This document shows, piece by piece, positions 3,655-47,219 of a DNA stretch of 64,000 nucleotides. Under the pieces are notes generated by a model. It did not search any database. It was not told where the DNA came from and saw only the letters and a list, made by a program, of their open reading frames with translations. The stretch covers positions 1-64,000 of the forward strand of contig NZ_SLUP01000002.1 in assembly GCF_004341235.1 (NCBI RefSeq), in the 5' to 3' direction. The stretch comes from Mariniflexile fucanivorans (GTDB lineage Bacteria; Bacteroidota; Bacteroidia; Flavobacteriales; Flavobacteriaceae). Position numbers and translations under genes: made by a program. Within the stretch, counting starts at the first letter, position 1. Each line of letters begins with the position of its first letter.

Positions 3655-6600
3655 ATGATCAAAGAATTTAAATATTCCAAATTTATTTTATCAATATTTT
3701 TGATAGGCTTTTGTATGTCTAGTTCTCTTTTCTTGAGTGCTCAAAACTTTGAAAGGTTTTCCAACAAAGAAGGATTTAATCAAAATACTATAAACGCCAT
3801 TTCTCAAGACCGTTATGGTTATTTATGGTTTGGCACCCCTAACGGGTTAATAAAATATGATGGTTATGAGTTTGAAACTTATACATCACAAACCAAAACC
3901 AATGGAAAGATTTCTAGCAACTTCATCACGTGCTTATTCAACGATTCTAATGGCATCTTATGGATAGGCACTAATGTAGGCATCAATGTGTATATCCCTT
4001 GGCTTGAAAAGTTTTACACCATACCGTTAACCTCAAAATTAAATATAAGTAAGATCTCTTCTGGACCAAATGGTGCCATATGGTTTACGGGCGAAAATAA
4101 ATTATATGCCTGTGTTGTTACAGATGTTGACAAAGGTGTATTTAAAGTTTCCGATAATTTTTTAGATTCATATACCAACGTAACTGCTATAAATCAATTC
4201 AGTTTTACAAATAAAAACTCATTGATTTTAGCTACTGCAAACAGTTTAAAACAGGTTTATTTCAACAAAAACAATATTGATATTAATTCAAAAATAGAAC
4301 GAATAATTAATTTTGATGATTTTGAGGGTAGCAATATTACATCCATTAAAAACATACAAAACATTCTCTGGATTGGGACTTATGATGGCCTATTTAAAAC
4401 AAGCTTAGAAAATGGTCGAATCCATATTATTCGCAAATACGATAATAAAAACAGCCAAAACAAAGCAAAATCCCCATTAAGAATAAACACAATTTTTGAA
4501 GATAACAATGGAGCTATCTGGGTAGGCACAAGAGAATTTGGTCTTTTAAAATATTTAGAATTGGAAGATGAATTTATAAGCTATACCTACAACCCGAAAA
4601 ACGATCTTGGCTTAAGCAGTAATTTAATTAATGTCATTTTTCAAGATAATTATGACGTTTTATGGATTGGTACGGCACAAGGGGGTATTAATAAATTGGA
4701 TATTGCGCAAAAACAATTTATTAACTATTCCAAAAACCCTTACGATAAACAATCAATAAGTGATAATTTAATCACTTCCATTTTAGAAGACAAAAATGGT
4801 AAATTATGGGTTTCTTCGTTCAATAAGGATTTATGTAGAAGTACCAATTCAATCAACGAAAAAACTGTAAACACAATTAAATTTGAAAACTTATCTAAGC
4901 AGCTTGATGTATTTGGAGACAAAAATATAATAAGGTGTATTTTTGAGGACAAAAAAGGGTATATCTGGTTTGGCACAGATTTAGGCATAATGGTTTATAG
5001 TCCCCTTAAAAATAGTTTTAAAAAAATAATTTTAAAAAATAACGGCATAACTGTCCAAGAACAATTATATCGTAGCATATGCCAAATAGATGAAAATCAT
5101 TTACTTTTTACAGGTTATCGAATTACTGTTATAAAAAACCCTTGGGACAAAATACAAGGTGAAAAAAACCCTCAAATAGAAGCGGTAACCATTTTAGATA
5201 TAGATCCTAAAACAATATACCAAACTGTACTAAAAGACAAAAAACAGAGGCTATGGTTCGGTACTAGTAATGGTTTGTATTATGGGACTTTTAATGGCGA
5301 AAAAATCAATATTGAAAATCGTCTTTCGGATGAAGGAACTAACAGCTTAAACTTAAGCTACCCAAATATTTTTTCACTCCATGAAGACCTACAAGGAAGT
5401 ATTTGGGCAGGAACATTTGGTGGTGGATTAAACAAAATAAGTTTGGATAATGAAGGGGTTCCCACTAAAATAGAGCATTTCAGAAAGAACAATATTTTAC
5501 CCGATGATGCTATTTATGGAATTTTACAAGAAAATGATAGCAACTTATGGATTAGTACGGATATGGGGATTGTAAAATTCAATACCAAAACCAATGGTGT
5601 AGATGTTTTTGATGTAAGAGATGGTTTGGCTCAAAATAATTTTAGACAAGGTGCATCATTTAAAGGCAACTCTGGTTATTTTTATTTTGGGGGATTAAAT
5701 GGTTTAACCCTTTTTAAACCTGAAAACATTCAATTAAACAGCACGCCTCCAAGAGTCATTATCACATCACTTTTAGTAAATAATAAAGTAATAGAAATTG
5801 GAGAAAAGCTAGATAACACAGTTATTCTTGAAAAATCCATTTCAGAAACAAATAGTATCTCTATAAGCCAAAATGAACAGACTATTGCTTTTCAATTGGT
5901 AGCTGAGCATACTTCTACCCCATCAAAAAATAAATTAGCCTATAAACTAGAAGGATTTAACAATACTTGGATTGAAGAACAAAGTGGTAAAACTACAGTA
6001 ACCTATACGAATCTTTCGGCAGGTGATTATGTGTTTCAAGTAAAAGCCGCAAACGGTGATGGTGTTTGGAGCCCAGAAATAAAGAGCTTAAAAATCATTA
6101 TATTACCACCATGGTATCAAACGTGGTGGAGTTATTTGCTCTTCTTTTTACTAACTATTTTAGTAGGTGTTGGCATTATTATATATTTTGTTCAACATGA
6201 AAAGCTAAAACAGCGCTTAAAATATGAACAGCTCGACAAAGAGCGATTAGATACAATAAATCAAGGTAAATTTAGATATTTCACCAATATATCACATGAG
6301 TTTAGAACACCTCTTACCTTAATTGCTGGACCTTTAGAGCATATTATTGCTTCCAAACAAGATGCTGTTAACACAAAGTATTTAGCCATAATTCAAAAAA
6401 ACACAAAACGACTACTTAACTTGGTCGATCAATTAATAACCTTTAGAAAAGCAGAACAAGGCTTTATAGATTTAAATTTTAGCCAGAATACTTTAGGTGG
6501 TTTTATATACCCAACAACCGAGGCCTTTGAAAATTATGCCTTTGAAAAAAATATAAATTTCTTCTACAAAGTTAATTCTCCAAATGAAGAAATTGTAATA

Positions 6601-7824
6601 GACACAGAAAAAGTAGAACGAATTCTTTTCAACTTATTATCTAACGCATTTAAAAACACACCTGCTAACGGAAGCATAAGCATCGAATCTGATATCATTT
6701 ACGTAAAGGACACAAGAATGATACGCATAGATGTTATAGATAATGGAAAAGGAATACCTGCAAAAGATTTAGATAATATTTTTGAAAGATTTTATCAATT
6801 AGGGCATTTAGATCAACGTGTAAGTGGTGGTGGTATTGGATTGGCATTTTGTAAATCGCTCATTAATTTACTCCAAGGAGAAATTTCAGTAAAAAGTGAA
6901 CCAGGTGTAGAAACTAGATTTTCTGTTTTAATACCAACAGGTAACATGGAAGACTATAATGATGTTGAAGTTAATACCAATACAAAATCATTTATTAAAG
7001 ATTGGGTACCACTATCTACCGATTATAAAAAAGAAACCTTAAATGAAGTTTCAATAGATAAACTAAAAGAACACCATATATTAATTGTTGAAGACGAAGA
7101 AGATGTTCAAAACTTTTTAATAAGTACACTTTCTGAAGAATACAATATTACCATAGCAAACAATGGCGTTGAGGGCTTAGAGAAAATAAAACAACGTGAA
7201 CCTACCCTTGTAATTAGTGATGTTATGATGCCTGAAATGGATGGTTTTGCTTTCTGTGAAAAAATTAAATCAAACCCTGAAACATGTCACATTCCTGTGC
7301 TTCTATTAACAGCATTAGGTACTAATGAAGATACCATTAAAGGCTTGGAGTTTGGTGCAGACGAGTATGTAAGTAAACCATTCTCAATAAAAGTTTTAGA
7401 ATTACGGATTAAAAAACTTATTGAAAATCATATTAAAATAAAAGAATATTTCAAAAAGAACAGTACACTTCCAAAAAAAGGAATTGAATTATCTACCCGA
7501 GATGAGGACTTTTTAAACGAAATTATTAATATTATTGAAGAAAACATTTCCGATTCCAATTTTGGTGTTGAAGAATTATCCGCAAAAATGAATTTAAGCG
7601 CCTCTCATTTTTACCGCCGCTTAAAACAACTTACAGGGCAAATTCCTAATGCTTATTTACGAAATTTTAGACTACAGCGCGCTGCCGAATTATTGAATAA
7701 AAATGATGGCGCCAATGTTACAGAGGTTATGTACCAAATTGGTATTGAGTCTAACTCTTATTTTTCTACTTCATTTAAAAAGTTGCACGGCGTTTCGCCA
7801 TCCGAGTATTTAAAAAATTCATAA
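3655..7824 (+). CDS. Hybrid two-component system (HTCS) regulator of the PUL
   Basis: A 1389-residue one-protein sensor, kinase and transcription regulator. A signal/anchor segment (about 8-29) is followed by a periplasmic sensor of repeated Reg_prop blades (recurrent LWFGT/LWIGT up to about residue 690) and a Y_Y_Y domain (about 740-815). A membrane helix lies at about 823-846. The cytoplasmic part has HisKA with SHEFRTPL (phospho-acceptor His881), HATPase_c with DNGKGIP and GGGIGLAFCK, a receiver with SDVMMPEMDG (phospho-acceptor Asp1189), and a C-terminal AraC-type helix-turn-helix (about 1285-1389). HTCS proteins typically bind an oligosaccharide in the periplasm and activate the adjacent PUL. 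As the only specific regulator in the locus it probably controls the divergent operons downstream. All domains look complete. Confidence 0.95.
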   Translation: MIKEFKYSKFILSIFLIGFCMSSSLFLSAQNFERFSNKEGFNQNTINAISQDRYGYLWFGTPNGLIKYDGYEFETYTSQTKTNGKISSNFITCLFNDSNGILWIGTNVGINVYIPWLEKFYTIPLTSKLNISKISSGPNGAIWFTGENKLYACVVTDVDKGVFKVSDNFLDSYTNVTAINQFSFTNKNSLILATANSLKQVYFNKNNIDINSKIERIINFDDFEGSNITSIKNIQNILWIGTYDGLFKTSLENGRIHIIRKYDNKNSQNKAKSPLRINTIFEDNNGAIWVGTREFGLLKYLELEDEFISYTYNPKNDLGLSSNLINVIFQDNYDVLWIGTAQGGINKLDIAQKQFINYSKNPYDKQSISDNLITSILEDKNGKLWVSSFNKDLCRSTNSINEKTVNTIKFENLSKQLDVFGDKNIIRCIFEDKKGYIWFGTDLGIMVYSPLKNSFKKIILKNNGITVQEQLYRSICQIDENHLLFTGYRITVIKNPWDKIQGEKNPQIEAVTILDIDPKTIYQTVLKDKKQRLWFGTSNGLYYGTFNGEKINIENRLSDEGTNSLNLSYPNIFSLHEDLQGSIWAGTFGGGLNKISLDNEGVPTKIEHFRKNNILPDDAIYGILQENDSNLWISTDMGIVKFNTKTNGVDVFDVRDGLAQNNFRQGASFKGNSGYFYFGGLNGLTLFKPENIQLNSTPPRVIITSLLVNNKVIEIGEKLDNTVILEKSISETNSISISQNEQTIAFQLVAEHTSTPSKNKLAYKLEGFNNTWIEEQSGKTTVTYTNLSAGDYVFQVKAANGDGVWSPEIKSLKIIILPPWYQTWWSYLLFFLLTILVGVGIIIYFVQHEKLKQRLKYEQLDKERLDTINQGKFRYFTNISHEFRTPLTLIAGPLEHIIASKQDAVNTKYLAIIQKNTKRLLNLVDQLITFRKAEQGFIDLNFSQNTLGGFIYPTTEAFENYAFEKNINFFYKVNSPNEEIVIDTEKVERILFNLLSNAFKNTPANGSISIESDIIYVKDTRMIRIDVIDNGKGIPAKDLDNIFERFYQLGHLDQRVSGGGIGLAFCKSLINLLQGEISVKSEPGVETRFSVLIPTGNMEDYNDVEVNTNTKSFIKDWVPLSTDYKKETLNEVSIDKLKEHHILIVEDEEDVQNFLISTLSEEYNITIANNGVEGLEKIKQREPTLVISDVMMPEMDGFAFCEKIKSNPETCHIPVLLLTALGTNEDTIKGLEFGADEYVSKPFSIKVLELRIKKLIENHIKIKEYFKKNSTLPKKGIELSTRDEDFLNEIINIIEENISDSNFGVEELSAKMNLSASHFYRRLKQLTGQIPNAYLRNFRLQRAAELLNKNDGANVTEVMYQIGIESNSYFSTSFKKLHGVSPSEYLKNS

Positions 7825-10658: not shown

Positions 10659-12011
10659 ATGAAAAAACAATTACTTTTTACAATCGCATTTTTAGCAGCA
10701 ATTTTTGTTGCTTCAGCGCAATCAAACACATTAACTTTCACTGGTAGTGAAGCTGTAAATCAAGAGTTTGGTCTTGGATCTAACCAAGGTATTTATGCGC
10801 TTTCTATTGGTTCTGTATTCACACAACCTGGTACATCTATCCAATATAATCAAGAAATTGTTTCTGGCACTGATGCTCCTGTTAGTGAGACTTTTAGTAT
10901 AAATACGGATGGTAGTAACATGGATGCAACACTAACATTTAAATATAGAAAATTTGCAGCTAGTACTGTAAGTGGAGTTATTTCTATAGCTGGACAAGCT
11001 GATTTCCCTTTTGATTTACCTGATACTACAGTAGAAGATGGTGGAGATCCTGATTTTGCTGACAGTCATAAGTTTTTTGATTACACTATAGTTTTTCCTA
11101 TATCTCCAACAGCAACTAATGTAACATTCACTCTTAATGAATTTGTTAAAAATGCTGCTTCGACTCTTCGTTTTAGAATTTACAGTATTCAAATTAATGG
11201 GGCGGTAGCTGTACCTCCTTTAGATTCAGAAGCCGTTTTAGATGCTGGAAATGAGTGGTACCATAACTATAGCCCAGATACATTTGGCGTAACACTTAAT
11301 GAGGTACAAGGTGGTGTATTTTTAGAGCAAGCATCGGCAGTAGCTACACCAACTACTACAGGAAATAGCAGTCCGCTAGTTGCCAAATTCACAAAAGGAG
11401 AAGATGCACACTCACAATTAAAGTTCCAATTACCTACTGTAATTACAACAGCAGATCAATCAAGTGCTATTTTTAAAATAAGGACCTATGTACCGTCAAC
11501 TAATGTAGATGGAAGTTCTGGTAGAAGATTAAGATTGTTTTTGCGAGATGGAGTTGAAACGGTAGAACAAAAGAGCGTAACAATTGATGTTACTGTTTTT
11601 GATAAATGGCAAGAATACACCTTTGATTTTACGGGAGTTGCACTTACAGAAGGTGTATCTTATAGTACTGTAAACCTATTATTTGATCAACCAGATGCTG
11701 GTTTTCTTGCTACCGGGAACGTGTATTATTTAGATGCTTTTCAAGGACCATCTGCAGCCACATTACCTGTAAATGAATTTGAATTAAATAGCGCTTCTAT
11801 TGTTGCTTATCCTAATCCTGTAACAAACAGTTTTCAAATAGATTCTAGTATAAACATTGAGAATGTAAAATTATATAATGTTACTGGGCGTTTGTTAAAA
11901 ACATTTAATACACAGTCTAATTATGATATTAGTGATTTAGCTACAGGCATGTATATTGCAAATATTAAAACGGAATTTGGTTCTAAATCCTTAAGGATTG
12001 TAAAAAAATAA
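10659..12011 (+). CDS. T9SS-exported two-module protein, probable glycan-binding
   Basis: A 450-residue protein with a signal peptide (cleavage after FVASA) and no recognised catalytic domain. Module 1 (about 22-180) is a beta-rich domain resembling the N-terminal module of the TIM-barrel protein at 31476 and the two tail modules of the sulfatase at 12690. Module 2 (about 188-365) resembles the N-terminal jelly-roll-like module of the protein at 15921 (shared pattern RLRLFL / WQEYTFDF / YYLDA). The last 70 residues are a type A T9SS sorting domain (VAYPNPVTNSFQI, then GMYIANI). It therefore should be exported to the surface. A surface binding protein built from modules used by its neighbours is the best guess; binding is not shown. 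Confidence 0.75.
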   Translation: MKKQLLFTIAFLAAIFVASAQSNTLTFTGSEAVNQEFGLGSNQGIYALSIGSVFTQPGTSIQYNQEIVSGTDAPVSETFSINTDGSNMDATLTFKYRKFAASTVSGVISIAGQADFPFDLPDTTVEDGGDPDFADSHKFFDYTIVFPISPTATNVTFTLNEFVKNAASTLRFRIYSIQINGAVAVPPLDSEAVLDAGNEWYHNYSPDTFGVTLNEVQGGVFLEQASAVATPTTTGNSSPLVAKFTKGEDAHSQLKFQLPTVITTADQSSAIFKIRTYVPSTNVDGSSGRRLRLFLRDGVETVEQKSVTIDVTVFDKWQEYTFDFTGVALTEGVSYSTVNLLFDQPDAGFLATGNVYYLDAFQGPSAATLPVNEFELNSASIVAYPNPVTNSFQIDSSINIENVKLYNVTGRLLKTFNTQSNYDISDLATGMYIANIKTEFGSKSLRIVKK

Positions 12012-15920: not shown

Positions 15921-17897
15921 TTATTTTGAAATAATTATTCTTCTCGTGATGCTCCTATTAGTACCATTCGAAAGGTTTACAAAATACATTCCCGTATTCA
16001 AGTTCGATAAATCTAATCGTGTTGTAAAAGCCCCATCATCCCATAACTTTTCTAATACTTTTATACCTATAGTAGACATAACTACAATATTATTTATTTC
16101 ATTAGTAGTTCTAGTAATTGTTAATTCATTAATTACTGGGTTAGGATACATCTGAATTTGAGATGTATTTGATGTAGGGTCAATAGAATCTGTTGATAAA
16201 ACATTGTCAATTTCTCCAACAAGAAAAGCTCCTTCAGGTCTTACATAGGGCTCATAATCAGGTACAGGACTAGACATCAATCTGTCATTAATTGCTTTCA
16301 TAATAACCATTTCATCAGGAGTCATATATCCTGCAATTCCATTAATATTAGATACGGTATTTGCAAATGTAACCCCTGCTTTGGCATCGATAAGAATTTT
16401 AGAAAATCTGTAAGCGTCTTCTATTCCAAATATTAAATTTGCGCTAGAAACATGCCACTTATCTCTAATTGGAAACCATGCATGTTTTAACACTTGTTTT
16501 TTTTCATACATGGACCATGGATTACCAACCATAGCAGGTAATGTAAACTCTTCGTAGCCCCATGAATTTGGAGGAGCTCCACCACCTAATGCAGAGACAT
16601 GTCCTCTTGTAAAATCTGAATAAGAGTTGTTTCCTCTAAAGTTTGAGACATCATAGTCTCTTTCATCTTCATCATCAACTCCATCAGAATCAACAGTAAC
16701 AGGTTCTCCCTCTATATAATGTAAATGACCAAACTCAGAAACCGACATAGCAGCTCCAGGATCAGCATCTTTAAACATTTGAACAAAATCTTCTAAATAC
16801 CCATCGTCACGAAGCGTTGTGGTTGTGTCAAACCAATACCCATCAGCATACGCTGCTATAGCAGGAATAAATCCTTGAACTAAATCTTTATAAGCTAAAT
16901 ATTCATTTCCACCAAAATTAGCTGTGTAATATGCTACCCAAGCAACTTTTGTTTCATCGCTTGCTCTATCTAAATAATTTGTAGATATGTACAAAATAAT
17001 CTTCTTCCCAGAATTTTTTAGCGTTTGTAAAACTTCAAGCATTATTTCTTGATTCTCTGCACTAGGAACTAAACTTTCGTGTATCTCTGTAGCTACATCT
17101 ACATTGGTATTATCTCTTACGTTAAAATAATGTGAGTGTGCAAAATAAGAAAGATTTGTAATCACATGACCTACTGCAGGAAGTTCTGTAACTAACTCCT
17201 GTACACCTCCTAGTGGGTCATGACCAGTTGCTATTTCTGCATCTAATCTTTCTCCACCATAAACAGGGAAGGTAGCTCCCCATGAACCTGCTAACCATGC
17301 AGCAGGATGATCTACCGTTGTTGCTGTTTGATCTGTTGATCCATATATTCCATCAAAATAGTATGTCGTGGCTGGTTCTACAGTACTACCATTAGCTAAA
17401 CCTAGTGTCATAAGGTCATATCCACCTACATCTAGTACATTTTGTGGAATAGCAACATTTTGAAAATGGAAGGTAAACGTTTCCCATTCTTGCCCAACTG
17501 TGAAATTCAATTGTTTATAAACACGTCCTCCTTCATCAGAACTATCAAAAAACACTCTTAATTTTGAATTGTTTGTAGTTAGTTCATCAGTAGGTATGTC
17601 AATATATGCTTTAAGTGTAACTGTATAATCGGTTAAATCTGTTACGTAATTGAATAAATTAAAATGAAGAAAATCATTTGTACCTTCAGGTCTATTGTAT
17701 TTAGAGACAATAGTGTGTGTATTAATTCCTGAAGTATTAGGGTTTAGAAAGTTTCCTGTTAAATTTGTAGGTACATCTTCTTCGGCTGTAAACTCAATTT
17801 TACGCGTATTTGTTTGATCTTCTAACCACAAAAATTGCGCATTAGCAATCTGTACAAACGACAGCAATACTAGGAAAAATGGGAAATATTTATTCAT
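15921..17897 (-). CDS. T9SS-exported TIM-barrel-like glycosidase candidate
   Basis: The ATG at 17897 (MNKYFPFFLVLLSFVQIANA) gives a proper signal peptide. The longer frame to 17915 would need a TTG start. An N-terminal jelly-roll-like module (about 20-195) is followed by a 380-residue domain starting at AAWLAGSWGATFP. Its landmarks are FAHSHYFNVRDN, KKIILYIS, ADGYWFDT (Asp357, candidate catalytic acid), NSWGYEEFTLP and RPEGAFLVGE. The layout recalls clan GH-R (GH29/GH107) barrels but is not a clear GH29. A T9SS tail (IQMYPNPVINELTI) ends the protein. A paralogue of the main domain lies at 31476. An extracellular endo-acting fucanase-type role is plausible because no classical endo-enzyme was recognised here; this is inference. 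Confidence 0.7.
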   Translation of the reverse strand: MNKYFPFFLVLLSFVQIANAQFLWLEDQTNTRKIEFTAEEDVPTNLTGNFLNPNTSGINTHTIVSKYNRPEGTNDFLHFNLFNYVTDLTDYTVTLKAYIDIPTDELTTNNSKLRVFFDSSDEGGRVYKQLNFTVGQEWETFTFHFQNVAIPQNVLDVGGYDLMTLGLANGSTVEPATTYYFDGIYGSTDQTATTVDHPAAWLAGSWGATFPVYGGERLDAEIATGHDPLGGVQELVTELPAVGHVITNLSYFAHSHYFNVRDNTNVDVATEIHESLVPSAENQEIMLEVLQTLKNSGKKIILYISTNYLDRASDETKVAWVAYYTANFGGNEYLAYKDLVQGFIPAIAAYADGYWFDTTTTLRDDGYLEDFVQMFKDADPGAAMSVSEFGHLHYIEGEPVTVDSDGVDDEDERDYDVSNFRGNNSYSDFTRGHVSALGGGAPPNSWGYEEFTLPAMVGNPWSMYEKKQVLKHAWFPIRDKWHVSSANLIFGIEDAYRFSKILIDAKAGVTFANTVSNINGIAGYMTPDEMVIMKAINDRLMSSPVPDYEPYVRPEGAFLVGEIDNVLSTDSIDPTSNTSQIQMYPNPVINELTITRTTNEINNIVVMSTIGIKVLEKLWDDGAFTTRLDLSNLNTGMYFVNLSNGTNRSITRRIIISK

Positions 17898-19614: not shown

Positions 19615-21996
19615 TCATTTTAAATTTTTATAATAGTGATGACCTGGTAAGCGTTCTGTTTTAGTTCCAAAGCCGAATAAATTAATTTCATCCTCATTCT
19701 TAGGCAATTCTTCTATGGATAAGTTTACCTTGCTTATTTCTTTTGAAGTAATGATAACAGATTCATCTGCTTTTAAATCAACCAAATAAAAACCATCTTC
19801 ATCCATTTTTACTGAAATTTGTTTTCCGTTGCTATAGAATTTAGGGTTTTCTAAATCTACTTGAACTTTACACTGGTTTCCTTTTAAACTTTTTATGGAC
19901 ACAAACTCTGTTATTCCTTTTACTTTTTTGGCACTCACTAAAAAGGCGCCTTGTGTTCTTAAATCATGAAATGCCACGTCTTCCCATTTTTTGGGGCTGG
20001 CTGGAAACACCCTGATTTTTCCGCCCCAACTTTGAAGCATCATATCATGTAAACTTGTTGCAAAAGACAAGGGACTTTCAATAACCGGATTGATTTTCCC
20101 TTCAGCATACATAGTTGTTGACGATACATTTTCATGTTTGATAAGAAAATCTAAGTAATAATATGCTTTATCGGCATCTCCCAAACAAGCATACATGGAT
20201 GACGCCCCCGTAGCTGTATAGCCTGTTACTGGCATGGCTTTTATGCCTATACCACTATTAAAGGTAACATCCAACCAATGATCGAGTGAGGTTTTTAGTA
20301 GTTTTTTGTCAGCTTCATTTTCTGGCGTTATAACCATTAGAGGGTAGAAAGCTAATAAGTGCGAATAGTGACGATGCGGTATAGAAAACGGAATGTCTTT
20401 TCCAATTCTAAGTCCGTTTTCATCAATTTGAAATTCAACTAAATTATCTAATATGCGTTGCCATTCTTTTAGCAGCGGGTCATTTAAATTGTGTTGGTTG
20501 TTAATATCGATTAATGTTTGGCAACTCCAGCGAATTAATGCCAATGTGAAATTAATATCTTGTCCATGCCCTGGTTTATATTCTGGGGACCAACTGTTTT
20601 TTATATGAATTTTTCCATCATCAGAATCTACAGGGTTGTCTTTTATATAATTCAAATAACTATTTACTGTCTTTTTTAATATGGGAAATAGCTTGTCTCG
20701 CATACGAACCTCATCGCCTGCAAATTCGCAATGCAACCAATAATCGTTTAACATCCACGCTAACATATCCGGTACTTTTGCGCCATTATATGCAATAAGG
20801 TCCTGTGGTAACAAAGCTGCAACTGCCGCACTATGCTTCCATCTCTCAGGAACATTGTTTTCTAAATTTTCAGCATATTTATCAATATTATTGGGCAAAG
20901 ATTCTCCTATAGACATTCTGTTTGCCGTTAAGTGCGTCCAATAAATGAGTTGCACATTTAAATCGCCCCATACCATTGGCCAAAAAGTTCTATTATACCA
21001 AGGCCCCATTAAATCTAAAATAGGCCCATTACCTCGTGTAGCAGAAGCCAATTTATACATCTGTATCCAATAAAACGATTCTTTTTCAGCATCATTTATA
21101 GTCAAAAAACTCAATGGATAATAGTCGTGCCACCATTTTTGATGTGAGGATACAAATCTGTTTTCTTTCATCAGTTTTTCAGCAACTTCTAAATTTTTAG
21201 TTACAATGTCTAACGAATTATGTTCCGGATAACTATGATGAACACTTGTAATTAACTGTTGTTTACCCGAAGGATTCCCTGTTAATTTCCAACCCGTGGT
21301 GGTTTCTCCTCGATTGTCAAACAAAGGCTGATAACAAAAATCATAATCGTTTTTTTTACTAATTGTTGGTTTGGGTGGCATTTCTAAATCTGTGGCACGC
21401 ATTTTATCCCACGTTTCTCCTTTTGGTCCTCCACCAGCTTTAATGGCTTCATATACTGGGGGTATTGGGTCTTCTGGATGCCAATTAATCTCTAGGTTTT
21501 CATTACTTGCATCTGTTTCAAAATAGATGACGTCCTTTTCACTATGTGTAAATCCTTTAATTTTATAAGTGCCTTGTGAAGTGGTAACTGTTCCAGATAA
21601 TTCTGCGTTCCATAAACTTAAGCGCATATCAATTCCTGTTACTTTGCCTTTAGAAACTAAATCAAAATGACCTAATGGTAATCTACTCCGTTTTATCCAA
21701 AGCATTTCTTCTTCTTTAGTTTTAGCCTCTCTATGGTCGTAATAATCATGTCTGCCAACATAAACGGACATCACATTATCACCTTCGCCTTTTGTTTGAT
21801 AAAAAAGAAAACCGACGTTTCCGTTGCCAGTATATGGCGCAATTTGCCACTTATCTGGAACCATATCCCAGAGCATATCGTGTTTGGATAGAAATGATTC
21901 GTAATCGACTTTAAAATTTACCTGAGTATTCTGTGAAAATAAGGTGCTTGATATAAGAATAAAATGATAAAGAAATAGAGTTTTTAAATTAAACAT
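19615..21996 (-). CDS. GH95-like alpha-L-fucosidase/galactosidase
   Basis: A 793-residue enzyme with a signal peptide (cleavage near LFSQN). GH95 landmarks in order are an N-terminal APYTGNGNVGFLFYQ (counterpart of the family's LPLGNGRLGAM), VWGDLNVQLIYW in the (alpha/alpha)6 barrel, NSWSPEYKPGHGQD carrying a likely catalytic Glu, the long helical domain, and LQSWGGKIRVFPASPKKW near the C-terminus. GH95 enzymes are inverting exo-alpha-1,2-L-fucosidases or L-galactosidases. Several motifs deviate from textbook GH95, so substrate and even family are not certain. It is the first gene of the 12.7-22 kb minus-strand cluster, diverging from the sulfatase gene at 22349. Confidence 0.75.
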   Translation of the reverse strand: MFNLKTLFLYHFILISSTLFSQNTQVNFKVDYESFLSKHDMLWDMVPDKWQIAPYTGNGNVGFLFYQTKGEGDNVMSVYVGRHDYYDHREAKTKEEEMLWIKRSRLPLGHFDLVSKGKVTGIDMRLSLWNAELSGTVTTSQGTYKIKGFTHSEKDVIYFETDASNENLEINWHPEDPIPPVYEAIKAGGGPKGETWDKMRATDLEMPPKPTISKKNDYDFCYQPLFDNRGETTTGWKLTGNPSGKQQLITSVHHSYPEHNSLDIVTKNLEVAEKLMKENRFVSSHQKWWHDYYPLSFLTINDAEKESFYWIQMYKLASATRGNGPILDLMGPWYNRTFWPMVWGDLNVQLIYWTHLTANRMSIGESLPNNIDKYAENLENNVPERWKHSAAVAALLPQDLIAYNGAKVPDMLAWMLNDYWLHCEFAGDEVRMRDKLFPILKKTVNSYLNYIKDNPVDSDDGKIHIKNSWSPEYKPGHGQDINFTLALIRWSCQTLIDINNQHNLNDPLLKEWQRILDNLVEFQIDENGLRIGKDIPFSIPHRHYSHLLAFYPLMVITPENEADKKLLKTSLDHWLDVTFNSGIGIKAMPVTGYTATGASSMYACLGDADKAYYYLDFLIKHENVSSTTMYAEGKINPVIESPLSFATSLHDMMLQSWGGKIRVFPASPKKWEDVAFHDLRTQGAFLVSAKKVKGITEFVSIKSLKGNQCKVQVDLENPKFYSNGKQISVKMDEDGFYLVDLKADESVIITSKEISKVNLSIEELPKNEDEINLFGFGTKTERLPGHHYYKNLK

Positions 21997-23952: not shown

Positions 23953-26496
23953 ATGAAAAAAATAATTACCGTATTACTAGTACTATGTATACTACCAGTG
24001 TTTGCATTGGATATCCATGTCGCTACAACTGGTTCGGATTCTAATGAAGGAACGGCATCTAAGCCTCTGCTAACTATTGAAGCTGCTCAAAAAAAGTTAA
24101 GAACAAGTGGACGTTTAGGTAAAGAACCCTGTCAAATAATAATTCATCAAGGAACTTATAGGTTAAGTATGCCTCTGAAAATTACAACTGAAGATAGTGG
24201 TAGTGAACAATTTCCTGTTATGTATTCTGCCGCTGAAAATGAAGCCGTAGTTATTACAGGAGCGCAATTAATTACCTCTAAATGGGAATTATTTAAAGAT
24301 GGGATCTATAGAACCAATGTTGGTGATTTAAATGCCATAGATCAACTTTTTGTGGGTCAGAAAAGACAACACATGGCTAGATACCCAAACTTTAATGCAG
24401 GTTTCGTGCCTACTGATGGTGATGATTCTGTACGTGGAAAAAAAGCAGGAACGGTTCCTTTTTCAGGGGCTACTCCAGACGCTTGGGATGCTAAAAAAGC
24501 GGCTGAATGGAAAAACCCTGCAGGCGCCATCTTAAATGGAATGCACAGAGGTCTTTGGGGAAGTCAGCATTATTTTGTGACTGGTAAAAACGATAAAGGA
24601 GAATTGGTTTACGAAGGTGGTTGGCAAAACAACCGATCTGCTCCGCCTCACGAAGGCTATCGAATGATTGAAAACGTTTTTGAAGAATTAGATGTTCCAG
24701 GAGAATGGTATCACAATACTAAGGACGGTTGGTTATATTATATGCCAGAAGCCCATATGAATCTTAACGACACAAAAATTGAAGCCGTCCTTCAAATTAA
24801 ACACCTTATTGAAATTTACGGAGAACATAAACTACCTGTTGCAGAAATGGTTATTCACAAAAGTGGTAATGCACAAAAAGAGACCGTTGTTAAAAACTAT
24901 GAAACTACTAATCCGGTAAAACATATTCAGATTTCTGGTATTCACTTTACAGGTACTAAAAGAACTTTAAGAGAAACCATTGAACCTTTACTTAGAAGCG
25001 ATTGGTGTGTATATCGTGGAGGCGCTATTCATATAAGAGGGACAGAGCATATTGTTGTTAAAAATTGTTCTTTCGAGGAATTGGGAGGAAATGCAGTGTT
25101 TATAGATAGTTATAATCGTAATATAGAAATTAAAAGCAACCTTTTTCAAAATAATGGTTCTACGGATGTTAACTTGGTTGGTTCATTCGCAGCGGTTCGT
25201 GATCCTTCATTTAGTTTTCAGCATCTTCCTCCAGCTTTAGATGAAATAGATACTACAATTGGTCCAAAGTCAAATGATTATCCAGCAGATTGCCTAGTGG
25301 AAGATAATCTGATGATGCGTTGTGGTCGTTTTGAAAAACAAGCCTCAGGAATTAATATTTCTATGTCATCAAGAATTACACTTCGCCATAATACCATTAG
25401 TCACACACCAAGGGCTGCAATAAATATTTGTGATGGAACTTGGGGAGGTCATATTATAGAATGGAACGATTGTTTTGAAACCGTACTAGAGACTCACGAT
25501 CATGGCGCTTTTAATTCTTGGGGAAGAGATCGTTATTGGTTTAGAGCTGGACCATCAGGACCTGACTTTAGAGATAAGAATGGAAAAGCAATGATTAGTT
25601 ACTATATAGAAAAGTATCCAAATGCTCCTTTATGGGATGCTTATCAAACAACTACTATTCGAAATAATAGAATGCAATGTGATCATGGTTGGGATATCGA
25701 TTTAGATGATGGCTCTACTAATTATGAAATCTATAATAATATCAGTCTATCAGGAGGCATAAAAACACGTGAAGGCTACCATCGTATTGTTACCAATAAT
25801 GTGATTCTAGGTGGAGGTTATACCTGTAATGTGCCATACCCTAAACCAACAAAAGATATTTTTGAAAGAAATATTCTTTGGGGTTCACCCATATATCGTT
25901 CTAGTAATCCAGAGCTATGGGGAGGAACTAGAAATTTCAATTTTGTTCACAATCCAGATTTTAAAGATGTTGTGCCTGCTTACGGTGCACAAGAACAAAC
26001 AAAGGATGATGCACAAAGTCTATATGGCAATGTACTGTTTAAAACTAATTCTCTTGATGACTTTACTGTAGCAGATAATTCTCAAGCATTAGAACTTGGA
26101 TATAAAAACTTTCCAATGACTGGTTTTGGCCTTACTTCTGAAGCATTGAAGCGTTTAGTGATACGTCCTGAAAATAAAGCACCAAAAGAGATAGCATCCA
26201 ACGTGTTTGTAGAGCAAAAGATGAAAGGATTATTGGGAGCTAAATTTAAAACTCTAGCAACGGAAGCGGAACTTTCTGCAACAGGAATGTTTGACACCTA
26301 TGGAGTCTTATTGGTTTCTGTTCCTGAGGATAGTAAATTGGCTAAAATGGGATTTAAAGTGGATGATGTAGTAATTGAATTAAATTCGGAAAAAATAGCA
26401 AATGAACAAGATTTTATTAAAAACTTAACGGATGGTAAACACACCGTAAAAGTATGGAGACATCAAGAGTCAAAAACATTTTCTTTTGAAAAATAA
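23953..26496 (+). CDS. GH141-like right-handed beta-helix enzyme with C-terminal PDZ domain
   Basis: An 847-residue protein with a signal peptide (cleavage near PVFAL). The N-terminal part begins DIHVATTGSDSNEGTASKP, the usual opening of secreted beta-helix glycosidases. Repeated helix rungs follow, with INICDGTWGGHIIEWND and DHGAFNSWGRD (about residues 520-530) as likely active-site region and IDLDDGSTNYEIYNN further on. GH141 contains alpha-L-fucosidases and xylanases; fucosidase fits this locus. Residues about 755-847 look like a PDZ domain (GVLLVSVPEDSKLAKMGFK, then DDVVIELNSEKI), unusual for a glycosidase. A paralogue with the same layout lies at 28329. It is 80 nt after the sulfatase and 34 nt before the beta-propeller gene, probably co-transcribed. 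Confidence 0.8.
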   Translation: MKKIITVLLVLCILPVFALDIHVATTGSDSNEGTASKPLLTIEAAQKKLRTSGRLGKEPCQIIIHQGTYRLSMPLKITTEDSGSEQFPVMYSAAENEAVVITGAQLITSKWELFKDGIYRTNVGDLNAIDQLFVGQKRQHMARYPNFNAGFVPTDGDDSVRGKKAGTVPFSGATPDAWDAKKAAEWKNPAGAILNGMHRGLWGSQHYFVTGKNDKGELVYEGGWQNNRSAPPHEGYRMIENVFEELDVPGEWYHNTKDGWLYYMPEAHMNLNDTKIEAVLQIKHLIEIYGEHKLPVAEMVIHKSGNAQKETVVKNYETTNPVKHIQISGIHFTGTKRTLRETIEPLLRSDWCVYRGGAIHIRGTEHIVVKNCSFEELGGNAVFIDSYNRNIEIKSNLFQNNGSTDVNLVGSFAAVRDPSFSFQHLPPALDEIDTTIGPKSNDYPADCLVEDNLMMRCGRFEKQASGINISMSSRITLRHNTISHTPRAAINICDGTWGGHIIEWNDCFETVLETHDHGAFNSWGRDRYWFRAGPSGPDFRDKNGKAMISYYIEKYPNAPLWDAYQTTTIRNNRMQCDHGWDIDLDDGSTNYEIYNNISLSGGIKTREGYHRIVTNNVILGGGYTCNVPYPKPTKDIFERNILWGSPIYRSSNPELWGGTRNFNFVHNPDFKDVVPAYGAQEQTKDDAQSLYGNVLFKTNSLDDFTVADNSQALELGYKNFPMTGFGLTSEALKRLVIRPENKAPKEIASNVFVEQKMKGLLGAKFKTLATEAELSATGMFDTYGVLLVSVPEDSKLAKMGFKVDDVVIELNSEKIANEQDFIKNLTDGKHTVKVWRHQESKTFSFEK

Positions 26497-28128: not shown

Positions 28129-28306
28129 TAAATAATTTTTTGAAACCAACTATCCTCGAGGCAGAGCCATAGAAGTATTTCGCTGGTTTCATTTTGACCA
28201 GAAAAGGTCAAAAACCAAAATTATGTATTTAGATTCCCGTTTTCACGGGAATGACAATTTCAACGGAAACCTCGAGGCAGAGCCTCGAGGAATTCTTTTC
28301 GATTAA
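28129..28306 (+). repeat. Composite palindromic repeat, copy 2 (internally deleted)
   Basis: Same element as at 12028 and 50936, but the roughly 48 nt between CCCGTTTT and CACGGGAATG are missing. The first CCTCGAGG pair is damaged on its right side (CCATAGAAG). It lies inside the + strand unit between two enzyme genes, starting 6 nt after a stop codon. Confidence 0.9.
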
Positions 28307-28328
28307 AACCGAATTTAAGTTTCATAAG

Positions 28329-31145
28329 ATGATGAAAAATATATTAATAGTTCTTGTCGTATTGTTAATAACAGGAAACTCTTTTGCTAAAGATATTTAT
28401 GTATCACCTAAAGGAGACGATGCTAATTCCGGCACAAAAAACAGTCCTTATTTAAGTTTTGAAAAAGCCTTACAAGACGTAAAAAAATATGCAGGTAACG
28501 AAGCCGTAACGGTCTGGTTTTCTTCTGGAGAATACTATCTTAATAAGACTATTGAGATAGGTAGTGATTATTCCGGAACGGAAAAATATCCCGTTATATT
28601 TTCAGCTTTATTAGGAGCAAAAGTAATCATCAAAGGCTCTCAGCGATTAGAGCATCTAGAATGGAAAGCCTATAGAAATGGTATTTATCAAGCGCAAGTT
28701 CCTGAAGGATTGTCGTTTGACCAATTATTTGTTAATGAAGAACGCCAAATTAGAGCACGATTCCCTAATTATGATTATGAGAATCCACTTCGTGATGGCA
28801 AAGGATATCATCAAGTCACAGGCGGTACAGATAAGCGTTATGATACATGGTTTTCATTTGACCCTAAAACATTTTCAGATAAAACATGGAGCAATCCAAA
28901 AACAGGAATAGTTCATGGTTTTCAAAGCCATAACTGGGGAAACATGCAGTATAAAATTAATTCAATAAATAAAGAAGCGCATAAAATACTCCTCGATGAA
29001 GGTGGTTGGCAACTTCAAAGAACACATGGTATTGGAGGAGAAAAAAGCCATGCTTCTTACTATTTTATTGAAAATATTTTTGAGGAACTTGATGTTGCTG
29101 GAGAATGGTTCTTAAATACAGAAACCAATACCCTTTATTATTATCCGATGCAAGGCGTAACATTAAGTGACGTTAAAATTGAAGTTCCTGTTATAAAAGA
29201 TATGATTCAGTTGAAGGGTACTAAAGAAGCACCTGTGAAAAATATTCAGTTTAAAGGCTTTCATTTTACACAAACCAACTACACGTTTATGGAGCCTTAT
29301 GAGCCGGTTGCTCGTGGAGATTGGGCAATTCATAGAGGTGGAACCATTTTTATGGAAGGTACAGAAAACCTATTGATTGAAGATTGTAATTTTGAATATG
29401 TTGGTGGAAACGGCATATTTATGAGCGCTTATAATCGTAATAATAAAGTAAGCAGTTGTAGGTTTGTCCATACTGGAGAAAGTGCCGTTTGTTTTGTTGG
29501 TTCTCCTGAAGCCGTTCGTTTTTATCAAACTTGGGATGATCAATTATTAGAAGGAAAGAGTTGGAATAAAATGCGGGAGCAAATGGATTTAGAAGCAGGT
29601 CCAAAAACTCCAGATTATCCAAAAGATTGCGTTGTTGAAAATAGCATCATGCACGATTTTGGTGATGTGGGTAAACAAGTGGCAGGCGTTTACATTTCTA
29701 TGAGCCATAAAATAACGGCCTCACATAACACTATATACAATTGTCCGCGTGCAGGAATATGTATTAACGATGGTACTTGGGGAGGACACCTTATTGAATT
29801 TAATGATATATGGGAAACGGTTAGAGAAACAGGCGAGCATGGGCCTTTTAATTCTTGGGGACGTGAGAGACAATGGAAAGGAGGTAGAGGAACGGATGAG
29901 CATTTTATTAAGGAATTGACGCGACTAGATGCTATTGACAATGTGGTTATTCGAAATAACCGAATCGCTAATTACCGTAAATCTATTAGTGCAGGAAATT
30001 GGACCATTGATTTAGATGATGGGTCTAGTTACTATGAGATATATAATAATTTAAATTTAGGTTCTACCATTAAACTAAGAGATGGCATGGGACGTAAGGT
30101 GTATAACAATATAACCGTAAGTGCAGTTCCATCAGGATGGCATGTATGGCCAGAATATTCAGAAGACGAAATTTATAAAAATATATTTGTGATTTCTGGT
30201 ACATTGCCCGGGGAAAATAAACCTACACAAAATTTTATTCGTGGTGTAGGATTATCTACGGACGTTAAATGGAGTGAAAATTATGATAATAACACCTATT
30301 GGAATGTAAATTATCCTGATAATTTTCACATGTCACCAAATCAGAAAATGGAAGCTTGGAAAAAGGAAGGATACGATCTAAATTCTGTTTCAGCAAACCC
30401 AAATTTTGTGGATCCAATCAAGGGGAATTATCAAGTCAAAGAAAATTCACCAGCATTAAAGACAGGTTTTAAAAACTTCCCTATGGATCAGTTCGGTCAT
30501 CAAATGACTCGTATTTTACCCTTTGGAGGTGATTTTGAAAACGAAATTATCGTAACCTTAAAAGCAGATAATAATGGAGGTAAGAAAGCAAAAGTTTATT
30601 TTACTACAGATGGTTCAGAACCCACTATGAATTCAGCAGAATACTTAGAGCCCTTTAAAATAAATAACTCTACGGTTGTAAAAGCTAGAACGTTTAATTC
30701 TGATGGAATTCCAGTTGGTTTTACAGCTCAAGTTGCATTTACAAAAGTTGAAAAAGTTACGCATCCTAGTTGGTTAAGCACTTTACTTGTTGGTGAATAT
30801 CAAGGAGAAAGAATCGATCAAGGAAAAAGTACAGAAACTAGACAAGCACTTGAAAAAGAATTACATGGCGCTTTGTTAATTAATATCGCAGACGATCCTG
30901 ATTTAATAGATGCAACAGGTGGATATAATTTTGGTTGTTATATTAAGACGTTGGATCCTAAAAAAGGGAAAATGTGGTTGGATGCTGGATTGAACAAAGA
31001 TTGGGTGATTCAAAAATTAAACAAACATAAAATTTTACATATAGCACATTTACAAAAGTTCCTTAAAGAATATTCAGGACAAACAGTAACGATTACTGCG
31101 GTAAGAGATTATGGTTCTAAGGTGTTTGAAGTAAGAATTCCTTAA
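28329..31145 (+). CDS. GH141-like beta-helix enzyme with chitobiase-type and PDZ-like C-terminal domains
   Basis: The ATG at 28329 (MMKNILIVLVVLLITGNSFA) gives a clean signal peptide. The open frame extends 26 codons upstream into the repeat but this is not a credible N-terminus. The mature protein opens with DIYVSPKGDDANSGTKNSP and shares rungs with the paralogue at 23953, including ICINDGTWGGHLIEFND and EHGPFNSWGRERQW. A CHB_HEX_C-type domain follows (KVYFTTDGSEPT, about residue 760). The C-terminal 90-100 residues are PDZ-like (LDAGLNKDWVIQKLNKHKI, then GQTVTITAVRD). It probably acts on fucosyl linkages in the periplasm; substrate is inferred from context. Confidence 0.78.
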   Translation: MMKNILIVLVVLLITGNSFAKDIYVSPKGDDANSGTKNSPYLSFEKALQDVKKYAGNEAVTVWFSSGEYYLNKTIEIGSDYSGTEKYPVIFSALLGAKVIIKGSQRLEHLEWKAYRNGIYQAQVPEGLSFDQLFVNEERQIRARFPNYDYENPLRDGKGYHQVTGGTDKRYDTWFSFDPKTFSDKTWSNPKTGIVHGFQSHNWGNMQYKINSINKEAHKILLDEGGWQLQRTHGIGGEKSHASYYFIENIFEELDVAGEWFLNTETNTLYYYPMQGVTLSDVKIEVPVIKDMIQLKGTKEAPVKNIQFKGFHFTQTNYTFMEPYEPVARGDWAIHRGGTIFMEGTENLLIEDCNFEYVGGNGIFMSAYNRNNKVSSCRFVHTGESAVCFVGSPEAVRFYQTWDDQLLEGKSWNKMREQMDLEAGPKTPDYPKDCVVENSIMHDFGDVGKQVAGVYISMSHKITASHNTIYNCPRAGICINDGTWGGHLIEFNDIWETVRETGEHGPFNSWGRERQWKGGRGTDEHFIKELTRLDAIDNVVIRNNRIANYRKSISAGNWTIDLDDGSSYYEIYNNLNLGSTIKLRDGMGRKVYNNITVSAVPSGWHVWPEYSEDEIYKNIFVISGTLPGENKPTQNFIRGVGLSTDVKWSENYDNNTYWNVNYPDNFHMSPNQKMEAWKKEGYDLNSVSANPNFVDPIKGNYQVKENSPALKTGFKNFPMDQFGHQMTRILPFGGDFENEIIVTLKADNNGGKKAKVYFTTDGSEPTMNSAEYLEPFKINNSTVVKARTFNSDGIPVGFTAQVAFTKVEKVTHPSWLSTLLVGEYQGERIDQGKSTETRQALEKELHGALLINIADDPDLIDATGGYNFGCYIKTLDPKKGKMWLDAGLNKDWVIQKLNKHKILHIAHLQKFLKEYSGQTVTITAVRDYGSKVFEVRIP

Positions 31146-31475: not shown

Positions 31476-33374
31476 TTATTGCTTTATAAATTTCGAAAAT
31501 TGGCTTTCACCGTTTTTAGAAATGACTTTAAAAACATAAATGCCATCATTTAGTATTGAAACATCGAAAGAGGTTTGGTTGCCTTTAAATTCTAATATTT
31601 TCTGACCACTCAGATTATAAATGATTGCAGAAGAAATTTCTTTTGATAATTTAAAACTTTGTTTTACTGGGTTTGGATACAAAACAAGATTATTTTCTTC
31701 TAAAATATTAGAATTAACACTTAATGTCTCACCTACCAAGTGAGCGCCTTCTGGTCTTACATAAGGAATATAATCTGGTTTTGATGATAGCATCATTCTA
31801 TCATTTATTTCCTGCATGATTGTCATTTCATCAGGAGTAATAGAACCATCGGTTATTGTAGTACTCCAAGTAATTGCAGCTCCTGCATCCGTAAAAGTTC
31901 GTACAAAACGGTAGGCTTGTTCTACTTCAAATATTAAATCGGCTCTTGCTACGCTCCATTGTTGTCTAATAGGTGCGAAATAATGTTTTAAAGTTTGTTT
32001 GCTACCATCATAAGAGGACCAAGGATTTTCAGTAATTAGAGGAAACGTAAACTCTTCATATGCCCACGAATTTGGTGGTGCCCCTTGCCCTAAAGGTGTA
32101 GGATGACCTGCGGTAAAATCCATATAAGGATCATTGGCTTCTAAGAAAAATACATTATAATCTGTAGGATCTGTATCATCTACGCCGTCAGAGTCTACTT
32201 GGATTCGGTTTCCATTAACATCTTTTATATAGGATTTATCAAGATTAGTTGCAATAGCAACATCTGGATCTACGTCTCTAATCATTGCGATAAAAGGAGC
32301 TACCTCTGCCGCTGGTAGACTACCTAGGTTATCTACCCAATATCCATCTGCCAAGCCTTTGAATCGTTCAAAATAACCTCTCGCTAATGTTCTCCAACCC
32401 AAAGCTTGATCTCCACCAAAGTTTAAATTACAATAATTTTCCCATGCTACTGAAATGGCAGCTTCTGTAGCATCAGAAGATCCTTGAATATTAGAAGGAC
32501 CACCTCCATTGATATAAAGAATTACTTTTTTTCCTGAATTTTTCAGGATAGAAATTATATCCAGTATTATTTGTTCGTTTGCTAACGAAGGAACCATTGC
32601 TGGATGAATTTCATTGGCAACATCTACATAAGGATTATCTCTTAAGGTATAATAATATCCATGTGCTGGATGTGTAAAATTGGTCATAACATAACCAACT
32701 GCTGGTAAATTATCTACAATTTGTTGCACGCCTGCTACCCATCCTGAACCGCTTTCGGCGTCCAAATTATAACCTCCAGGAACATTGAATCTAACTCCCC
32801 AAGTACCCGATAAAAAGGCGGCTTTAGTTATAATATTTTTATTAGTAACTTTAAAATTATATAATCTAGCTGCCGTAACTCCTGATGAAGTACCTACATC
32901 CAAATCAGTTATTTCAAATTTAATAGGCGTTGGTGTAGTTGAAAATGTGACAGCCCCAGCATAAGCAACAGTTAATGCTTGATATGGGGAACCACTCCCA
33001 TCACCAGAGGCATAGGTAAATGTCTGTGGTGTTTCAGTCCCAACCGTAATTTTTATAGCCATTGTATTTCCTTCGTATTTTCTAAAATCAAAAGAAATAA
33101 TACCATCAACAGTACCTGATGAAGTTTGAGCATTAAGTTCAAACGTACCGGCAACATCATTAGAATCAGCAACTGCAGCCCTTAATTGAGTATAAACTGA
33201 TGGATTTCCTCCTTCAGTAATATTAGCAGCCGTACCAGTAGAAACAACCGTTACCAAAGGACCTACCATCTTAAATGTATTATCTACTGCATCCAAAGTT
33301 ATAGTAGCTTGTGCAAATGCCATTGTGCTAGCAAATAAAAAGGTTGCGAGAATAAGTAATTGTTTAATCATCAT
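31476..33374 (-). CDS. T9SS-exported TIM-barrel-like glycosidase candidate, paralogue of 15921
   Basis: The ATG at 33374 (MMIKQLLILATFLFASTMAFA) is preferred over a TTG-started frame to 33389. An N-terminal beta module (about 20-180) resembles the sulfatase tail modules of 12690. The main domain opens with AAFLSGTWGVRFNVPGG and keeps the paralogue's landmarks: HPAHGYYYTLRDN, KKVILYINGGG, ADGYWVDN (Asp348, candidate catalytic), NSWAYEEFTFP and RPEGAHLVGE. A T9SS tail follows (LVLYPNPVKQSFKL). The N-terminal module differs from the paralogue's while the barrel is conserved, so the barrel is the functional unit. It lies 265-280 nt behind the 33.6-43.7 kb operon and may have its own promoter. Confidence 0.7.
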   Translation of the reverse strand: MMIKQLLILATFLFASTMAFAQATITLDAVDNTFKMVGPLVTVVSTGTAANITEGGNPSVYTQLRAAVADSNDVAGTFELNAQTSSGTVDGIISFDFRKYEGNTMAIKITVGTETPQTFTYASGDGSGSPYQALTVAYAGAVTFSTTPTPIKFEITDLDVGTSSGVTAARLYNFKVTNKNIITKAAFLSGTWGVRFNVPGGYNLDAESGSGWVAGVQQIVDNLPAVGYVMTNFTHPAHGYYYTLRDNPYVDVANEIHPAMVPSLANEQIILDIISILKNSGKKVILYINGGGPSNIQGSSDATEAAISVAWENYCNLNFGGDQALGWRTLARGYFERFKGLADGYWVDNLGSLPAAEVAPFIAMIRDVDPDVAIATNLDKSYIKDVNGNRIQVDSDGVDDTDPTDYNVFFLEANDPYMDFTAGHPTPLGQGAPPNSWAYEEFTFPLITENPWSSYDGSKQTLKHYFAPIRQQWSVARADLIFEVEQAYRFVRTFTDAGAAITWSTTITDGSITPDEMTIMQEINDRMMLSSKPDYIPYVRPEGAHLVGETLSVNSNILEENNLVLYPNPVKQSFKLSKEISSAIIYNLSGQKILEFKGNQTSFDVSILNDGIYVFKVISKNGESQFSKFIKQ

Positions 33375-33388
33375 ATTTAAGAGGTTCA

Positions 33389-33418
33389 ATTAATGGTAAT
33401 TGTTTAATTACCATTAAT
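33389..33418. promoter_or_regulatory. Palindrome directly upstream of the TIM-barrel gene
   Basis: ATTAATGGTAATT and AATTACCATTAAT are exact complements separated by GTTT. The palindrome ends 15 nt before the start codon, so it could be a leader hairpin or an operator. The rest of 33419-33654 holds no gene. Confidence 0.55.
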
Positions 33419-42520: not shown

Positions 42521-43693
42521 TTATTTCCAATCTAATTTTGCTGTTTTATTTTCAATATCTAAAGTGACGTCTATGTGTTCAAAAGATCTTTTATAAGTAT
42601 ATCCTGTTTTAACTGCAGGACCTTTTGGCGCTCCTAATTTGTTTTCATACTGAGTAAAAGACTTTAACCATACTGCCGAAGTTTTACTATTATAACCATC
42701 GTGAGGATACACATAACTGTATTTCTCAGCACAAACCAAAAAGATAGCCAACACGTAATCCAAACGTTCTTTAATGTTGTCATTTAAATTTACAGACTGT
42801 CTAATATCATCCATCCCTTTTACGGCACCTTCAAGGCCTTCTCCAAGACCTATAGACATTGCAATGACATTACCTTCTTGTGCCGATTTCTGAAAAGCTT
42901 CAATCCCTTTAGAAAGGTACTCTGCATAAGTCATACCAAAACTTTCATGATCAAATCCTTCAAGATAAGAACCATCAAAATATTTTAAATAGTCTCTTCC
43001 CACATCGTTAAATTCGGGACGAACACGAATAATATTCGCGATAAGCAAATTATCTTTACCAACACCTGCTTTTAAATCCGTCATCATTTTAAAGTAACCA
43101 GAAACAATGTCTTTTTGTTTATCTAATCCTACTCTACTGTCAAAAAAACCAGGAACCAACACTTTGATATTGGCATCTAAAAACACACCGTCAATATAAG
43201 GGCTGTCCGTTTCATTTTTAACATGGTTCAACCAATAAGCACGTACTTTTTCCTTTGAAAGATCATAAAACCCAGTAGAACCATTGGGCATAAAAACTTT
43301 TTGCCCTTTATCATTTACAAGTATTGCATCTGGATTTTTTTTAATAAAAGCTTCATCTTCCTCATAAGTTCCCCAATTAATTACGACATTTTTGTAATAT
43401 AAAATTTTAGCTTTAGGGTTCACTTTTTTCACTTCCTTTGCAGCTTCAATAGTCCCTTTTTCGGTTGAACCAAATGTGGAGCTTCCAGTCGTTTTTTCGA
43501 AAGTGATTAATGGGAATTTTGACAAGTATGTAATCTCCTCCTTTGTGAAAGCATCGTTTTTACGCACATGCATATACAAAGGCATGGTATCCCAAGAAAA
43601 TTCTGGAAATTTTTTAGTATCCTGAACTTGAGCAACACTGCAGCCCACAGTTAATATGGTGAGTACTACTAAATAAACATTTTTAAAATTCAT
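42521..43693 (-). CDS. GHL15-like TIM-barrel lipoprotein, putative glycoside hydrolase
   Basis: A 390-residue protein with a lipoprotein signal (LTILTVGC, Cys about 18). It resembles the hypothetical glycoside hydrolase GHL15-type barrels: FPLITFEK early, KAKILYYKNVVINWG, FYDLSKEKVRAYWLNHV, then YIDGVFLDAN (Asp173) and GSYLEGFDHESFG (Glu245, Glu250) as candidate catalytic residues. A paralogue with the same layout lies at 56522, second gene of another minus-strand group. It leads the operon divergent from susC, so it is probably an outer-surface enzyme acting early; an endo-acting function is possible but unproven. Confidence 0.65.
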   Translation of the reverse strand: MNFKNVYLVVLTILTVGCSVAQVQDTKKFPEFSWDTMPLYMHVRKNDAFTKEEITYLSKFPLITFEKTTGSSTFGSTEKGTIEAAKEVKKVNPKAKILYYKNVVINWGTYEEDEAFIKKNPDAILVNDKGQKVFMPNGSTGFYDLSKEKVRAYWLNHVKNETDSPYIDGVFLDANIKVLVPGFFDSRVGLDKQKDIVSGYFKMMTDLKAGVGKDNLLIANIIRVRPEFNDVGRDYLKYFDGSYLEGFDHESFGMTYAEYLSKGIEAFQKSAQEGNVIAMSIGLGEGLEGAVKGMDDIRQSVNLNDNIKERLDYVLAIFLVCAEKYSYVYPHDGYNSKTSAVWLKSFTQYENKLGAPKGPAVKTGYTYKRSFEHIDVTLDIENKTAKLDWK

Positions 43694-47196: not shown

Positions 47197-47219
47197 AAAC
47201 AATTTATAATATATAAATT

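Follow-up and report, generated by a model that had tools for sequence, protein, structure and literature searches.

Which enzyme opens the fucoidan chain from within, and at which bond, is the question raised by the fucoidan locus in the 64,000-nucleotide stretch analysed here (hereafter the window; Mariniflexile fucanivorans, contig NZ_SLUP01000002.1). An earlier note, made from the sequence alone, had proposed that gene P0001 encodes a new endo-fucanase whose conserved domain could not be placed in a classical family. By its sequence and predicted fold, this domain is a catalytic domain of glycoside hydrolase (GH) family GH107, and P0001 is very probably a secreted GH107 endo-fucoidanase, be it of alpha-1,3 or alpha-1,4 linkage. 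The endo-fucanase candidate with its sorting tail of the type IX secretion system (T9SS) was therefore retained and its novelty was not, since the domain is 44-48% identical to characterised GH107 enzymes. Within this family, P0001 belongs to a clade in which one sugar-contacting residue is exchanged.

Placement of the P0001 domain in GH107

The open reading frame (ORF) of P0001 encodes a hydrophobic N-terminus finishing in ...IANAQ (by-eye reading), an N-terminal module, the catalytic domain (D1) and a T9SS tail (Table 1). The stretch from AAWLAGSWG to RPEGAFLVGE was found to be a single conserved domain, and the tail recognised in the earlier note was recovered as a type-A signal with both Pfam and TIGR04183. 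The characterised enzymes that match D1 across the whole domain are P5AFcnA, Mef1 (45.7% identity) and Mef2 (47.5% over 360 columns), and both GH107 matches of P0001 in a PDB sequence search had E < 1e-90. No GH107 match above cut-off was observed in Pfam or NCBIfam, and D1 was reported as a domain that prediction programs did not yet include (PMC9147238). Between the P0001 domain and the MfFcnA branch of GH107 there was no sequence match. An RxxxxxDxxxxD-type motif is formed by Asp357 with Asp352, Ala346 replacing the first-position Arg, and the DxxxGH acid/base motif is present as DFTRGH with His433.

The model of P0001 is a (beta/alpha)8 barrel matching the solved GH107 members, a prediction that depends on the sequence match. 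The clan GH-R-like layout suggested in the earlier note agrees with this model, in which the barrel neighbours that of GH29, a family of clan GH-R whose alpha-L-fucosidases are exo-acting. GH29 membership was rejected, only the predicted fold being related: identity is 7-14%, the PDB sequence search returned no GH29 entry at E up to 10, and profile comparison with the two GH29 proteins of the window gave a probability of 3.5% with only the nucleophile strand aligned. Furthermore, the acid/base of GH29 is Glu (PMC11943901) whereas that of P0001 is predicted to be His. GH168 was likewise rejected, with no entry at E up to 10 in the same search and a profile probability of 0.4% against the two GH168-like proteins of the window. 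The two outcomes that the earlier note had named against itself, a match to a non-glycosidase family and the lack of a conserved acidic pocket, did not occur.

Against five orthologues in related loci, the ratio of nonsynonymous to synonymous substitution (dN/dS) of D1 was 0.08 (L009), 0.14 (L010), 0.20 (L011), 0.17 (L014) and 0.19 (L012), values that identify P0001 as a maintained coding sequence under purifying selection. In all five pairs, D1 had a lower ratio than either the N-terminal module or the tail.

An exchanged residue in the -1 subsite

The nucleophile and acid/base of Mef1 are reported to be Asp187 and His270, with Tyr128, Asn215 and Trp318 in the -1 subsite (PMC10619423). Our alignment shows that the P0001 equivalents are Asp357, His433, Tyr303, Ser387 and Trp481 respectively, while Asp403, Asp405, Asp409 and Asp411 are the aspartates of the Ca1 site. 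The nucleophile, acid/base, Tyr, Pro and Trp were invariant across 53 aligned rows, and Asp357, singled out in the earlier note as the residue to mutate, is the predicted nucleophile. The -1 Asn, which is conserved but not family-defining, was reported in all ten characterised GH107 enzymes tabulated with Mef1, three of which are among the 53 rows (PMC10619423); P0001 has Ser387 instead.

GH107 domains were gathered from the genome of the window, from sampled genomes of its family and class, from genera around the matches and from eight orthologue genomes. Ten of the 397 family genomes matched, one of them (G383) by the N-terminal module only, and the genera around the matches yielded 3/71, 3/6, 2/7 and 1/6 genomes. 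None of 395 genomes sampled across the class matched besides the window's own, a soft absence as at most five candidates per genome were scored there and at most three in the family-wide search; with so few candidates, non-matching genomes are not proven free of GH107. Searches of this kind would also miss the MfFcnA branch, which is absent from the tree. The final alignment of 70 ORFs with the domain was reduced by 2 short and 17 duplicate entries to 51, both window proteins included, to which two PDB chains were added.

At the -1 Asn position the 53 rows have N in 39, S in 9, Q in 4 and T in 1, and the same 14 non-N rows share an Asp at position 494, where Gln is usual elsewhere (Table 1). 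One branch of the tree separates these S/T/Q rows from all others, with support 100/99, or 100/100 when columns 387 and 494 are left out. The exchange needs one change on the tree and not fourteen. The clade is over-represented among the rows because orthologues were collected by similarity to P0001. It is adjoined by L020 (weakly, 83/43) and by the Mef2 group, with 100/100 for the whole branch.

A second GH107 gene of the window, P0002, was described in the earlier note as a paralogue with a different N-terminal module. This was borne out, as the conserved domain is common to both (44% identity over 449 aligned columns, tail included) and the N-terminal module of P0002 does not match that of P0001. 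Winogradskyella vidalii (G866) also has two GH107 domains, namely L068, the orthologue of P0001, and L060, which groups with P0002 at 100/100. L060 is 59.3% identical to P5AFcnA and the published value for Wv323 is 59% (PMC11240576); L060 is therefore probably Wv323. Of 13 genomes found with the S/T/Q type, 9 have this gene and one of the P0002 type on a single contig, separated by about 7-29 kb, the other four being G002, G861, G862 and G867. A further GH107 ORF of another branch, 1127 residues from stop to stop, was noticed in Polaribacter less than 10 kb from the P0001 orthologue (L009:18146-21526).

The S/T/Q clade is apparently a GH107 branch not yet tested in the laboratory, and the -1 exchange may affect which substrate P0001 chooses. 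We tentatively suggest, while leaning slightly to the other side, that the clade with S/T/Q387 and Asp494 is a functional GH107 subfamily whose rebuilt -1 subsite takes a fucose that differs from that of any characterised GH107 in its sulfate or acetyl pattern or in bearing a branch. This subfamily and the P5AFcnA/Wv323-type enzyme encoded a few kb away would act in relay, opening alpha-1,3-fucan stretches that resist either enzyme on its own. Linkage and sulfation preferences are reported to have been established for few members of GH107 and to have a bearing on which fucoidan structures withstand degradation (PMC11240576). As one -1 residue is exchanged in the S/T/Q clade, and an orthologue of a probably characterised enzyme shares its contig in 9 of 13 genomes, the clade offers a test of the GH107 specificity determinants.

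Proposed activity and competing readings

From sequence, predicted fold, residues, phylogeny and synteny we infer export, activity, linkage and division of labour. P0001 would be a secreted or surface protein in which the N-terminal module stands ahead of the barrel and the T9SS tail follows. Asp357 is predicted to attack the fucose bound in subsite -1 at its anomeric carbon, with His433 acting first as acid and then as base. The chain would be cut internally, probably with retention, a mechanism taken from the work of other groups on GH107 enzymes. The likely target is the alpha-1,3 bond between sulfated L-fucose residues of brown-algal fucoidan, and the released oligosaccharides would be imported via the SusCD pair and finished by the sulfatases and the GH29 and GH95 fucosidases of the same locus.

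Cleavage of alpha-1,3 bonds is the probable specificity, by analogy, because no characterised enzyme lies closer to P0001 on the tree than Mef2 and P0002 is orthologous to the probable Wv323. Mef2 (PMC9147238) as well as P5AFcnA and Wv323 (PMC11240576) are reported to be alpha-1,3 enzymes. As its -1 subsite is changed, P0001 may accept a substrate pattern differing from that of the co-encoded enzyme.

Several points weigh against this assignment. The replacement of the -1 Asn by Ser and of the RxxxxxD Arg by Ala means that substrate and rate could differ; Mef2 is reported to have Val at the latter position (PMC10619423). In the open-licence literature, no activity data or characterised member was found for the S/T/Q clade. 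In the tree, Mef1, reported as alpha-1,4, falls on the same side as P0002, and its authors caution against predicting specificity from phylogeny (PMC10619423). The predicted local distance difference test score (pLDDT) is lower in residues 391-470, which hold the Ca loop and His433 (block means 70-86). The fold model is no independent evidence, because Mef1 was part of its alignment and PDB entries were used to train AlphaFold.

Within the same family assignment, P0001 could be an alpha-1,4-specific endo-fucoidanase like Mef1 and the MfFcnA group. The identity of Mef1 to the domain is hardly below that of Mef2, and close relatives are reported to differ in linkage (PMC10619423). We regard this as unlikely, though well worth keeping in mind, since the tree groups P0001 with Mef2 at 100/100, P0001 and the Mef2 group agree in having Ser at the variable -1 position and, together with P5AFcnA, in having Thr where Mef1 has Arg35, and the partner P0002 is orthologous to a probable alpha-1,3 enzyme. 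It is quite improbable that the altered -1 subsite, found in all 14 clade members, has made P0001 a GH107 derivative with little or no catalytic activity whose main role is to bind fucoidan: P0001 keeps the nucleophile, acid/base, Tyr, Pro, Trp and Ca1 aspartates, the replacement residues are polar, and D1 is under the strongest purifying selection. A new glycoside hydrolase family, which the lack of any Pfam or NCBIfam model above cut-off might suggest, has next to no standing, being already refuted by whole-domain identity to three characterised GH107 enzymes.

The surrounding locus and known relatives

The window also holds eleven sulfatases and one SASA-type esterase in addition to the genes in Table 1. 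The earlier statement that this polysaccharide utilisation locus has no recognised endo-enzyme is wrong in view of its two GH168-like and two GH141-like genes, endo-fucanases having been reported in GH141 (PMC12786026). Pfam calls both GH168-like proteins GHL15 ('hypothetical glycosyl hydrolase family 15') although solved GH168 endo-1,3-fucanases match, which marks the Pfam name as outdated. As Pfam- and NCBIfam-based annotation can overlook GH107, a fucoidan locus may wrongly be judged short of endo-enzymes.

Table 1. Features of the window discussed in the text
Feature	Position	Strand	Evidence or remark
GH107 gene P0001	15921..17897	-	ORF (ATG at 17897, stop codon end at 15921), PDB matches, predicted fold; 658 residues
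Probable signal peptide, residues 1-20	17838..17897	-	Read by eye from translation
N-terminal module, beta-strand-rich, residues ~46-187	17337..17762	-	Model secondary structure; homologous modules in other GH107 proteins
GH107 catalytic domain D1, residues ~197-564	16206..17309	-	Sequence matches and predicted fold
Asp357, predicted nucleophile (Mef1 Asp187)	16827..16829	-	D in 53/53 rows
Ser387, replacing -1-subsite Asn (Mef1 Asn215)	16737..16739	-	N in 39/39 other rows, S/T/Q in 14/14 clade rows
His433, predicted acid/base (Mef1 His270)	16599..16601	-	H in 53/53 rows
Asp494, common to clade	16416..16418	-	14/14 clade rows; Gln in 37/39 other rows
T9SS type-A sorting tail, residues 583-656	15930..16151	-	Pfam E 5e-13; TIGR04183 E 1.6e-10
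Second GH107 gene P0002, orthologue of L060 (probably Wv323)	31476..33389	-	Likely start ATG at 33374
P0002 N-terminal module, type differing from that of P0001, also in stand-alone T9SS-type Winogradskyella proteins	32826..33311	-	Sequence comparison
Hybrid two-component regulator	3655..7824	+	
450-residue protein, two modules and T9SS tail; candidate glycan-binding protein	10659..12011	+	No catalytic domain recognised
GH95 fucosidase	19615..21996	-	
Right-handed beta-helix protein, GH141-like	23953..26496	+	Beta-helix match; GH141 label inferred, no GH141 model match
GH141-like	28251..31145	+	GH141_M insertion domain, E 2.4e-06
GH29 fucosidase	36809..38659	-	Pfam Alpha_L_fucos
GH168-like gene	42521..43693	-	Nearest 9joc, Fun168D, E 2e-144 (name, family: PMC11943901)
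SusC/SusD pair	44047..48878	+	
GH29 fucosidase	49108..50934	+	Pfam Alpha_L_fucos
GH168-like gene	56522..57724	-	Nearest 8ya6, Fun168A, E 6.7e-183 (name, family: PMC11943901)

Of eight related loci, five (L009, L011-L014) keep the order GH141, sulfatase, GH95, sulfatase, P0001 gene, with one more sulfatase before the P0001 gene, and the remaining three (L010, L015, L016) keep it in part. Two GH43-like proteins below the Pfam cut-off were noticed at 26531-28123 and 57759-58805. In the sulfatase at 12690-15683, the T9SS tail is preceded by about 340 additional residues, by eye two repeated modules, which matched nothing else in a module comparison set with few sulfatases.

The N-terminal module of P0001 matches the module preceding most of the compared GH107 proteins, the orthologues of the P0002 clade among them (38-41%), with no match in P0002, L055, L069 and L072 in the same comparison. 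That of P0002 instead resembles, at 67-73% identity, the first module of 451-453-residue proteins in four Winogradskyella. The 450-residue protein of the window is of a type that recurs in related loci (L074-L077; L009:14450-15838); its second module is as in Winogradskyella while its first differs, and the first module in Polaribacter apparently differs again. Modules thus seem to be exchanged among the secreted proteins of the locus, and we would guess at a glycan-binding role for them.

Genome G409 was considered to represent Muricauda eckloniae because it contains the complete typed Mef1 chain (L042) and all five of the Mef2 motifs (L040). Mef2, an endo-alpha(1,3)-fucoidanase, resembles P0001 in its branch, its identity, the Ser at the variable -1 position, the loss of the RxxxxxD Arg and the T9SS tail. 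It differs in that the -1 Asn is retained and in its reported Ig-like, F5/8-type and CBM6 modules C-terminal to the catalytic domain (PMC9147238). The Mef2 domain has A, N, I and G at the four Ca1 positions, which are acidic in most rows; the alignment may be off there, and Ca2+ dependence has been reported for Mef2 (PMC9147238). In the Psychromonas endo-alpha(1,3)-fucoidanase P5AFcnA (6m8n), Asn occupies the variable -1 position as well as the conserved one, and the enzyme is described as being without a C-terminal extension (PMC10619423). The gene for Wv323, if this is L060, lies about 11 kb from the P0001 orthologue and its product has the same N-terminal module type (41%), but it is a member of the P0002 clade in which the Asn is retained. 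Lastly, the endo-alpha(1,4)-fucoidanase Mef1 (8bpd) has the barrel, the catalytic pair and the Ca1 site in common with P0001, and differs in its linkage, in being a single-domain enzyme and in having Ala at the variable and Asn at the conserved -1 position, as reported (PMC10619423).
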